Source: Actinocrinis puniceicyclus (GTDB lineage: Bacteria; Actinomycetota; Actinomycetes; Streptomycetales; Catenulisporaceae). Taken from it: DNA of 64,000 nucleotides. The position numbers and the translations under genes were made by a program. The stretch is from NCBI RefSeq assembly GCF_018283645.1, contig NZ_JAGSXH010000016.1, positions 1 through 64,000 of the forward strand, written 5' to 3'. This document shows, piece after piece, positions 8,799-11,702 of this stretch; position 1 is the stretch's first letter; every line of letters begins with the position of its first letter. A model generated the notes under the pieces. It did not search any database and was not told the origin of the DNA. It saw nothing but the letters and a program-made list of their open reading frames with translations.

Positions 8799-9722
8799 TT
8801 GAATCTCGGCTTTCGCGGTTTTCACAGGCCTGATGTGGTTACGTGGTTATGCGGCGTGGTCGAGTCCTGCTTGGGCCCAGGCCTGTTGGACGGCGCGGAT
8901 TTCGGCGTCGGTGGGCTTGAGCGGGGCGTTGGCTGTAAATCGGGCCGCGATGGTCGTGCGGCGGAGTTCGGCGGCCATGTCGGCGAACGCGGGCTCGGCC
9001 TTGGACGTGTACCAGGGCTGGCGCTCGCGCCGTTCGGCGGCATCGGCCGGGTGGTGTCCGTGCAGTGTGTACCAGATGACGACGATCGTGTGGCAGTACA
9101 GGGCGAACGGGGTGGTGCGCTCGACGGCGAGCTGGATGCGGTTGCGGGCCTGGCCGGCTCCGAGTTCTTGGCGTGCCTCGGCGAACGTCACCTCGGTGGA
9201 CCATCTCCAGGCGTATCTCGACACCAGCGTTGCCGGGGTGCTGTGCAGGTCGGTGGTGCCAGGGCCAGGTAGCGTGTCGTCCACCGCCACGGTCAGAGCC
9301 GCTCCGGCTGGCAGCAGGGTTCTGACGATCAGCCGCGACAGGTACAGGCCCAGGGTGTCGCTGCTCCAGGCCGCGCGGGCGAAGAACGCGTGCGCCCGGT
9401 CGTGCGGCCAGGTGCGGGCCAGCCCCGCGCCGGTCAGCATCCCGGTCACCGTCCCGGCCCCCGTGTTCGCGATCAGCCCGGTCGCCAGCGCGGCGAACGT
9501 GGCGAAGCCCGGCGCGGTGAACACGTAACGAAGGTTCCCCAGCAAGGCCAGCAGCGAGGCGGGTAAGGTCGCATCCGGAAGCATCGGCGGGCTCCTCTTC
9601 GGAGATGGCATCTCACCGTCGATGCTTCTGTGGCGCTCCAGGCGATCAGCCCGCAACCACTGCAAACCCCCCGATCAGGCGCATCAGGTCGCCTCTGCCA
9701 AGACAGCGACAGCCGACTCTCT
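8799..9722 (-). mobile_element. IS701-like insertion sequence with internal deletion
   Basis: Left terminal repeat (8799-8829, with CTCGGCTTTCGCGGTTTT) and right terminal repeat (9690-9722, with AAGACAGCGACAGCCGA) are imperfect inverted copies. Between them lies one transposase frame that keeps both ends of the protein but lacks the middle. At about 0.92 kb it is shorter than intact relatives (about 1.3 kb or more). It sits directly behind the valS terminator. Confidence 0.7.
8847..9584 (-). pseudogene. IS701-family DDE transposase with in-frame internal deletion
   Basis: 245 aa remain. The N-terminus is typical (LLALLGNLRYVFTAPGFATF), the first catalytic Asp is in TVAVDDTL (102-103), and the C-terminal part carries the glutamate region (TLVSRYAWRWSTEVTFAEA) and the family tail WYTSKAEPAFADM. 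The sequence jumps from DDTLPGP straight to TTDLHSTPATLVSRY, so the central part of the RNase H-like fold, including the second catalytic Asp, is missing. The frame is preserved across the junction. ATG 9584 has GGAG seven bases upstream. Almost certainly inactive by itself. Confidence 0.8.
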
Positions 9723-9800: not shown

Positions 9801-10682
9801 TCACGTGAAGTAGTGGCCCTGTTCGATGTCTTCGATGAGGCCGGGGTGGGTGGGCTTCCAGCTCAGGAGATCCTGGGTGATGGTGCTGGAGGCGGGCATG
9901 TCGGTGCTGAGCAGGCGCACCAACATTCCCTCGAATTCTTCGGCGGGCATCGACCGGGCGGGTAGGTTCAGGTGTCGGCCGATGGTCTCGACGATATCCC
10001 GGGTGGGCACCCCCTCGTCGCCGACGGCGTTGAGGACTGCGCCGGCGGGAGCGTGCTCGATGGCCAGCCGGTAAAGACGCGCGGCATCCTTCACGTGGAC
10101 GGCAGGCCAGCGGCTGGCCCCGTCGCCGATGTAGCCGCAGACGCCTTTGGCCCGGGCTGCGGTGATGAGCTGGGGAATGAAACCGTGGCGTTCTCCCTGG
10201 CCGTGCACCGAGCGGGGCAGCATGACCAGGCAGGTGCGCACGCCGGAGTCTGCGGCCGCGAGCGCTGCCCGCATGTTGGTGATGCGGGCAGCGATAGGCC
10301 CGGCAGGGACGAGTTCGTCGCGTTCGGTCGCGGGTCGGCCGGGTGTGACGAGCGTCGCACCGGAGATGACCAGGGGCTTGCCGGAGCCGGCGAGGCTGGT
10401 GGCGAACGTCTGGATGGCCGTGGCGTCGGTCCGCGTCGCGGCCTCGGTCACGCTGGGCACGACGAAGGCAAGATGGATGACGCCGTCACTGTCCAGAGCG
10501 CCGGCGCGCAGCACGTCGGTGTCGTCCAAATCGCCGCGGAGCACCTCGGCGCCCAGGTCGGCGACTGCTTGGGCGGAGGCGTCCGAGCGGGCCAGTCCGA
10601 GGACCTGGTGGCCAGCACTGATGAGTTCGGGCACGACGGCCGAGCCGATCCAGCCGGAAGCGCCGGTGACGAAGATACGCAT
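9801..10682 (-). CDS. NAD(P)-dependent atypical SDR / epimerase-like oxidoreductase
   Basis: 293 aa. The N-terminal Rossmann motif TGASGWIG (Gly7, Gly10, Gly13) is followed by a dinucleotide-binding fold and the conserved DLDD near residue 50. No clear YxxxK catalytic pair is visible in the usual place, so it fits the atypical extended SDR group; the substrate is unknown. ATG 10682 has AAGGAGA about six bases upstream. It is divergently transcribed from the TetR gene at 10851 across a 168-base region with three palindromic operators, so it is probably that repressor's target. The pair lies between two insertion-sequence remnants, suggesting acquisition as a module. Confidence 0.88.
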   Translation of the reverse strand: MRIFVTGASGWIGSAVVPELISAGHQVLGLARSDASAQAVADLGAEVLRGDLDDTDVLRAGALDSDGVIHLAFVVPSVTEAATRTDATAIQTFATSLAGSGKPLVISGATLVTPGRPATERDELVPAGPIAARITNMRAALAAADSGVRTCLVMLPRSVHGQGERHGFIPQLITAARAKGVCGYIGDGASRWPAVHVKDAARLYRLAIEHAPAGAVLNAVGDEGVPTRDIVETIGRHLNLPARSMPAEEFEGMLVRLLSTDMPASSTITQDLLSWKPTHPGLIEDIEQGHYFT

Positions 10683-10749
10683 GGAGATTCTCCTTGGTCG
10701 TGCTTCGGGTGATGAAGTTGCGCGGCGTGGAGGCCGCGGCCGGAGTGCC

Positions 10750-10768
10750 GATGCGATCCGGTCGCATC
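10750..10768. promoter_or_regulatory. TetR-type operator copy 1
   Basis: GATGCGATCCGGTCGCATC is a perfect 7-5-7 palindrome, 68 bases before the SDR start codon. The same motif recurs at 10784 and 10817. Confidence 0.65.
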
Positions 10769-10783
10769 AACTCTAACACCAGC

Positions 10784-10800
10784 ATGCGACGCCGTCGCAT
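10784..10800. promoter_or_regulatory. TetR-type operator copy 2
   Basis: ATGCGACGCCGTCGCAT is a perfect palindrome (17 bases), sharing the TGCGA-N5-TCGCA core with copies 1 and 3; its centre is 33 bases from copy 1 and 34 from copy 3. Confidence 0.65.
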
Positions 10801-10816
10801 CATTGCCTGCCCGGGT

Positions 10817-10835
10817 GATGCGATCCGGTCGCCTC
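10817..10835. promoter_or_regulatory. TetR-type operator copy 3, overlapping the tetR promoter
   Basis: GATGCGATCCGGTCGCCTC matches copy 1 except for one base in the right arm. It occupies the -35 region of the promoter whose -10 is at 10839-10844, so binding here would repress the regulator itself. Confidence 0.6.
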
Positions 10836-10838
10836 GCT

Positions 10839-10850
10839 TATGCTGTGAGG
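10839..10850 (+). promoter_or_regulatory. -10 element of a probable leaderless tetR promoter
   Basis: TATGCT (10839-10844), then six bases, then GTG 10851. The predicted transcript starts at the start codon; operator copy 3 lies immediately upstream. Confidence 0.5.
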
Positions 10851-11444
10851 GTGAGCAGATGGGCGCCGGACGCGCGGGAGCGCCTGGAGACCGCCGCACT
10901 GGACCTGTTCGCGGAGAACGGGTACGAGGAAACGACCGTCGCGCAGATCGCGGACCGCGCTGGCTTGAACCGGGCCACGTTCTTCCGGCACTTCGCCGAT
11001 AAGCGGGAGGTCCTGTTCAGCGGTGAAGACCGGCTGGCCGGGCTATTCGCCGACGGCATCCGCGCCGCCGCACCGGATGCCACGCTCACCGAGTGCCTAC
11101 AGGCAGCGTTCACGGCCGCCGAGGCCGCGATGACCCCGCAACAGCGGGCCAAGGCTGCCCAGCGCGTCCTGGTGGTCGCGGCGAACAGCGAAGTGCAGGA
11201 GCGGGGACTGCTCAAGCACGCCCGGATCGCCCGGACGATCAGCGCCGCCCTGCGCGAACGGGGCACAGAGGAGCTGACGGCCCGGCTGGCGGCGGAGGTG
11301 GGGATGCTCGCGTTCTCCATCGCCGTCGAGCGCTGGATGCGGTCGGACAATGACGAACCGTTCCCGGTCCATGCCGCAGCGGCCTTGAGCGACCTGCAGG
11401 TGCGCGCGGCTGAGCTTGACTCCCAGCCCCGCCTGTCAGCCTGA
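10851..11444 (+). CDS. TetR family transcriptional repressor
   Basis: 197 aa. The N-terminal helix-turn-helix (about 26-52: TVAQIADRAGLNRATFFRHF, then ADKREVLF) is typical of TetR proteins. The remaining helices form a ligand-binding and dimer domain with no recognisable ligand. GTG 10851 was chosen because it sits six bases after TATGCT, consistent with a leaderless message. Three operator palindromes between it and the divergent SDR gene indicate that it controls both genes; the inducer may be a substrate or product of the SDR enzyme. Confidence 0.88.
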   Translation: MSRWAPDARERLETAALDLFAENGYEETTVAQIADRAGLNRATFFRHFADKREVLFSGEDRLAGLFADGIRAAAPDATLTECLQAAFTAAEAAMTPQQRAKAAQRVLVVAANSEVQERGLLKHARIARTISAALRERGTEELTARLAAEVGMLAFSIAVERWMRSDNDEPFPVHAAAALSDLQVRAAELDSQPRLSA

Positions 11445-11559
11445 CCTGAGTTCAGCCGAACGCACCCACGCGTGCCCGGAGGACCTCGTCGACGGCGACC
11501 TTCCGGGAATTGGCATACGACCGACGTCGATCGGCACGGCAGGCCGCAGTCACCAGCTT

Positions 11560-11702
11560 GTGTTCACCCGAACCCAACGCCCCGCTCAAGCCCACCGACG
11601 CCGATATCCGCGCGGTCCAGCTCGCCTGGGCCCAAGCCGGACTGGACCTGACAGCCTGACTGCATCACCTCTGCGAAAACAGCGAAAGCCGAGCTTGAAT
11701 GA
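11560..11702 (+). mobile_element. 3' remnant of a second IS701-like element, inverted
   Basis: From 11576 the plus strand encodes NAPLKPTDADIRAVQLAW and then AQAGLDLTA-stop, nearly identical to the C-terminus of the transposase at 8847 (NAPLKPTDAEIRAVQQAW, AQAGLD). Right after it, GCGAAAACAGCGAAAGCC (11673-11690) matches the terminal repeat of that element. Only the last 30 or so codons and one end remain. It is oriented opposite to the first element. Confidence 0.75.

Follow-up and report, generated by a model that had tools for sequence, protein, structure and literature searches.

Within the 64,000-nucleotide stretch of the Actinocrinis puniceicyclus genome analysed here (the window), the divergent genes for an SDR protein and a TetR-family repressor are separated by a region that carries three 19-bp palindromes. 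Judging from the sequence, they very probably serve as operators for the TetR encoded next to them, whose dimers would repress both divergent promoters by occlusion; a probability of roughly 0.8 is assigned to this reading. The geometry of the predicted promoters would explain the array: two of the palindromes (op1 and op2) flank the predicted -10 hexamer of the SDR gene, and the third (op3) lies just upstream of that of tetR.

In the proposed mechanism, each palindrome would be bound independently by its own TetR dimer. The SDR promoter would be covered twice, by op1 and op2 straddling its -10, and op3, lying across the upstream portion of the tetR promoter, would make tetR, with its predicted leaderless mRNA, autorepressed. 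TetR would be released by a small molecule, probably one akin to what the SDR consumes or makes. The layout may have been derived from, or may alternate with, the common two-operator layout of the family, in which the tetR-proximal operator would serve both promoters; in the window, each promoter would have an upstream operator of its own.

The divergent gene pair and its intergenic palindromes

The features of the region are collected in Table 1. The SDR protein contains the TGxxGxxG cofactor motif (T6, G7, G10 and G13 are shared by at least 95% of 109 homologues). No YxxxK active-site motif occurs in its sequence, for which reason it is termed atypical. Membership of the regulator in the TetR family is indicated by the Pfam TetR_N profile (57.7 bits against a cut-off of 24; 9.6e-16) and by an all-helical fold, seen both in a structure model and in PDB matches. 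The model (pLDDT 91.9, built with 47 sequences) contains helices at residues 30-36 and 41-47, and places residues 40-42 at the start of the predicted recognition helix, 41-47. Two more specific assignments were rejected, namely the mycofactocin regulator MftR (TIGR03968, 71.9 bits, below the cut-off of 224.9) and a ScbR-type gamma-butyrolactone receptor (NF041196, 31 bits, below the cut-off of 150).

Table 1. Features of the SDR-tetR region, with positions in the window
Feature	Position	Strand	Remarks
IS701-like transposase fragment	8847-9665	-	adjoins SDR
SDR gene	9801..10682	-	293 aa; NAD(P)-binding, epimerase-like, Rossmann-fold; Pfam Epimerase 9.4e-23
op1, GATGCGATCCGGTCGCATC	10750-10768		seven-base half-sites perfect on both sides; over predicted SDR transcription start, as placed from the predicted -10
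Predicted SDR -10, TAGAGT	10770..10775 (reads 10775 to 10770)	-	between op1 and op2
op2, CATGCGACGCCGTCGCATC	10783-10801		over -35/spacer region of predicted SDR promoter
op3, GATGCGATCCGGTCGCCTC	10817-10835		over -35/spacer region of predicted tetR promoter; right half imperfect (TCGCC)
Predicted tetR -10, TATGCT	10839..10844	+	6 nt before start codon; just downstream of op3
tetR-family repressor gene	10851..11444	+	GTG start codon; product of 197 aa, with N40, R41 and A42 as recognition-helix residues
Second IS701-like C-terminal relic	11501-11647	+	beyond tetR; 57% over 49 columns

The two start codons are 168 bp apart, within the 200 bp that characterize a tetR/tetA-type switch, and, as in such a switch, palindromic operators appear to overlap both promoters, as judged by sequence and conservation. 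The promoters themselves are predictions, called as matches to TANNNT; a simple sigma-70 promoter scan returned none. With that qualification, the proposal in the first-pass annotation that one site covers the tetR promoter and another is nearest the SDR start is supported by sequence and conservation.

The palindromes are centred at 10759, 10792 and 10826, giving start-to-start distances of 33 and then 34 bp and gaps of 14-15 bp between site edges. They had been described as three copies of TGCGA-N5-TCGCA; all three are present at that spacing, but the exact core occurs only twice, the right half of op3 being imperfect. Both halves of op3 are perfect in only one of the 15 three-operator loci of the window's clade. 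Two exact cores in the window compare with a mean of 0.15 in shuffled sequence (2 of 100 shuffles reach two), whereas the core with two mismatches is not enriched (33 in the window versus 58.8 in the shuffles). Across the 6.77-Mb genome the exact core was found in seven places, two of them in the array, versus nine for the reversed control pattern. The core alone is thus not enriched, and the case for the array rests on clustering and conservation.

A genome search for further sites, as had been proposed, yielded no place outside the array within one mismatch of the long form GATGCGAYNNNGTCGCATC, and weaker places at two or three mismatches. In total, 68/59 places lie within three mismatches of the 19-bp form, compared with 26/28 for the reversed control. 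Eight weaker sites among the matches listed were inspected, six with two mismatches and two with three. Three of the eight fall on a long ORF whose third-position GC is high; in two of these three, in contigs C332 and C111, the site is near the 5' end of the ORF and could precede its true start. The other five lie outside any ORF that passed the filter. The array looks like a local device, although further targets with weaker sites may exist. In a separate observation, GAGGCGATCCTGCCGCATC, two mismatches from the operator pattern, occurs in contigs C18, C74, C79 and C369 of the same genome, at a contig end in three of them, and is probably a repeated element.

Operator number and predicted promoter geometry among relatives

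Loci with TetR relatives were taken from one genome scan (best 80 of 466 relatives) and several genome samples, a collection that leans to close relatives. Window copies and pattern-search matches (L001-L007) had been excluded beforehand, and 136 of 142 loci were usable (L013, L014, L015, L051, L147 and L149 were dropped); L041 and L119, whose aligned proteins are identical, may represent one species. Operators were called by GATG...CATC ends, A or T at base 7 and inner symmetry, with lengths of 17 to 22 bp allowed. The 136 loci contained 276 operators of 19 or 20 bp versus 8.35 in shuffled sequence: 230 versus 3.95 at 19 bp, and 46 versus 4.4 at 20 bp. Lengths of 17, 18, 21 and 22 bp showed no such excess, with 2, 1, 1 and 0 sites versus 3.6, 5.55, 4.45 and 4.0, respectively.

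A divergent SDR start is present in 111 of the 136 loci, and these SDR-TetR pairs have two operators in 87 cases, three in 22 and one in 2. (A previous scan of 107 loci under stricter settings had found none, one, two and three operators in 7, 14, 72 and 14.) In 95 of the 111 pairs, 23-25.5 bp separate the centre of the operator nearest tetR from the start codon downstream of it. The three-site array is found in 15 of the 16 loci, window included, whose TetR carries N40-R41-A42; the exception, L046, has two sites. On a tree calculated without the HTH columns, these 16 loci, together with L052 (T-R-A), fall on one side of a branch with SH-aLRT 92. A different arrangement occurs in L025, L112, L038, L165 and L195, where two operators overlap through a common half-site, their centres 13 bp apart, and a further one lies near tetR.

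The positions of the -10 candidates are conserved in parallel. In all 15 three-operator loci of the clade, an SDR-strand TANNNT lies between op1 and op2, 15-17 bp from the centre of op2 (L043 has a second candidate), and a tetR-side TANNNT lies 13 bp from the centre of op3; in none of the 15 does a TANNNT follow op2 at 9-17 bp on the plus (tetR) strand. Across the family, 70 of 78 loci have the SDR-side hexamer at 15-17 bp from the second operator, and 71 of 86 have the tetR-side hexamer at 12-13 bp from the centre of the operator. Of the 81 loci with a tetR-side hexamer, 76 have it 6-7 nt ahead of the start codon, from which a leaderless tetR mRNA is predicted.

Within the clade, the distance from op1 to op2 is 33, 32 or 31 bp (in 12, 2 and 1 of the 15 loci, respectively), and the distance from the SDR -10 to op2 shortens in step, from 17 to 16 to 15 bp, while that from op1 to the -10 remains 16 bp in all 15. 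Op1 thus seems to be locked to the promoter rather than to a neighbouring dimer. The distance between op2 and op3 ranges from 21 to 34 bp in the same loci. Given this drift, and the fixed distances of op1 and op3 from their -10 hexamers, the even spacing pointed out in the first-pass annotation is genuine in the window and partly a coincidence.

The same observations bear on the suggestion that the array is a sign of cooperative binding or looping. If dimers on adjacent sites touched cooperatively, or a small loop formed, the switch would be steep; this would be in keeping with three sites at spacings near three helical turns and with the two-operator loci, in 78 of 87 of which the sites are 30-34 bp apart. 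Those spacings are spread over the range (30, 31, 32, 33 and 34 bp in 15, 20, 12, 17 and 14 loci), which does not amount to strict helical phasing. The drift between op2 and op3, the constant 16 bp between op1 and the SDR -10 and the 14-15 bp between the edges of the sites speak against such contact; looping over about 33 bp would in general be implausible. Furthermore, the Tn10 TetR is reported to bind tetO1 and tetO2 non-cooperatively (PMC3037858, PMC11686294). We consider this possibility unlikely: independent dimers would suffice by occlusion, and the array by itself is no argument for looping or cooperativity. A graded series of affinities was also rejected, for op3 is the least perfect site in the window's clade, yet the two sides do not differ in the 87 two-operator loci (p = 0.30).

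A somewhat more doubtful proposition is that one or more of the sites was merely left behind when operators recombined, and does little by itself. The two sites of L046, in the same clade, are spaced as if op2 and op3 had fused, the similarity of L052 to the window begins at op2, and spaced three-site arrays also appear outside the clade, in L055, L021, L018 and L124. Against this, the three sites have been kept in 15 of the 16 clade loci, down to a TetR identity of 67% (L118), with op1 and op3 each at a fixed distance from a -10.

Recognition-helix residues and operator bases

The value of the array lies in its relatives, which turn it into a testable specificity table; the table was drawn from the 131 of 136 loci having an operator. 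Arginine or lysine at residue 42 is accompanied by C at base 6 in 72 of 72 loci, and serine or alanine by G in 51 of 51 (123 of 123 together), while threonine occurs with G in six loci and A in two. At residue 41, glutamate is accompanied by G at base 8 in 48 of 50 loci and lysine by C in 46 of 46 (94 of 96 together); arginine occurs with C in 25 of 30 and with T in five. At bases 6 and 8 the operator caller considers only symmetry and ignores which letters are present. Phenylalanine at residue 56 is associated with 19-bp operators in 106 of 108 loci, alanine, threonine or valine with 20-bp operators in 20 of 20, and serine with one of each. The 20-bp operators (in L016, L017, L018, L019, L063, L068, L070, L073 and others) have the same half-sites and mostly accompany A, T or V at residue 56. 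This residue changes twice on the tree, the 20-bp loci are essentially one clade, and two of the three 20-bp calls at F or S (L028 and L032) look spurious; residue 56, just past the recognition helix, might act as a spacing switch, which is put forward as a lead only.

The rules were fixed before 45 new loci were fetched, 43 of which contained an operator (L158 and L183 had none). The rule for residue 42 and base 6 held in 41 of 41 scored, that for residue 41 and base 8 in 41 of 43 (misses, L188 and L193), that for residue 56 and operator length in 42 of 43 (the miss, L193, has a doubtful second site call) and that for the position of the operator nearest tetR in 34 of 43. Residues 41-42 of the new loci were K-S in 30, E-R in 8, R-S in 5 and K-T in 2, with no NRA or TKR type, and the protein of L192 was already in the first set. 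Since these loci share clades with the first set, the exercise is a check on over-fitting rather than an independent phylogenetic test.

On the tree without the HTH columns, residue 42 and base 6 each change three times, and jointly three times, while residue 41 (E versus not-E) changes seven times, base 8 eight times and the two jointly nine times. Well-supported branches provide one independent pair per trait, with agreement always for residue 42 and 0.8 on average for residue 41. With so few independent changes, much of the association could be due to common descent.

Aligned by eye, residues 40-42 correspond to R52-Q53-A54 of AmtR and E37-Q38-P39 of TetR. In the AmtR model these are interface residues, with Q53/Q38 and A54/P39 contacting positions 4 and 6 of the operator (PMC2723105). 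The associated bases in the present family are 2 and 4 from the centre, nearer to it than the modelled AmtR/TetR contacts. The P39K variant of TetR is reported not to recognize its operator (PMC6570905).

That the palindromes are instead bound by another regulator, or form a recombination or RNA element, is highly improbable: IS701-like relics do lie on both sides of the gene pair, and TetR binding here is deduced from sequence, but the letters of the sites track the recognition helix of the TetR encoded beside them, op2 and op3 are located ahead of the start of either predicted transcript, and the only Rfam match, next to the array at 10662-10739, stays below threshold (20.6 bits, where the gathering score is 49) and is attributed to chance.

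The balance tilts slightly towards a readable code, in which R or K at residue 42 would specify C at base 6 and S or A would specify G, E at residue 41 would specify G at base 8 and K would specify C, and residue 56 (F, or A/T/V) would accompany the 19- or 20-bp length. In this reading, mobile SDR-TetR cassettes with different codes would work side by side in a single genome as insulated switches. Were the association causal, two recognition-helix residues would allow operators to be predicted, and orthogonal repressors could be selected for actinomycete expression systems. The loci would also offer natural data on the ways in which TetR-family proteins shift their target and half-site spacing. 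Neither this gene pair nor such a code was found published among the matches listed in a search of the open literature.

Probable mobility of the pair and comparison with known systems

The A. puniceicyclus genome itself contains three SDR-TetR pairs with three half-site types, counting that of the window; the other two pairs (L009 and L010) have TKT with GATGTGAC/GACGTTAC and TKR with GATGTCAC/GATGACAC. A further paralogue, L011, has a TER helix; no family-type operator was called there, and other inverted repeats occur upstream of its tetR. The TetR of the window is present at an identity of at least 89% in 2 of 14 genomes of the family, and is matched at 1e-55 in 5 of 391 genomes of the order, its own genome included in both counts; with so few genomes containing a close TetR, the clade is sporadic. 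Nucleotide similarity to close relatives starts and stops near the gene pair, which, from this and the flanking relics, probably moves as a two-gene cassette. For the TetR copy in L052, 79% identical, no SDR was detected; the intact pair (L042) is present in the same genome, and the nucleotide similarity of L052 to the window begins at op2.

The nearest solved structure to the TetR protein is that of SCO0337 from S. coelicolor (PDB 2dg7; phmmer E 7.4e-32; Foldseek TM 0.85, 38% identity); no paper naming this gene was found in the literature searched. In PMC3511530, five TetR-family regulators located less than 200 bp from a divergent gene are described, all of which repress that gene, and three-operator regions are reported for SCO7222/SCO7223 and ActR. 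The likeness to SCO7222/SCO7223 of Streptomyces coelicolor is one of layout: a TetR-family gene is divergent to an enzyme gene, with three palindromic operators in the 146 bp between them, three gel-shift complexes, three protected regions and repression of the neighbour (PMC3511530). Unlike the window, that system has the operator TGGAACGNCGTTCCA, a monooxygenase as target and two of the sites nearer the regulator gene. The window also resembles Tn10 tetR/tetA, where TetR is reported to control itself and its neighbour from operators over both divergent promoters (PMC3037858, PMC11686294, PMC3511530), the promoters in our case being predicted. Tn10 combines two operators with an efflux pump, whereas the window combines three with an SDR. 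In view of the published three-operator precedents, the array would represent a variant of a known switch.
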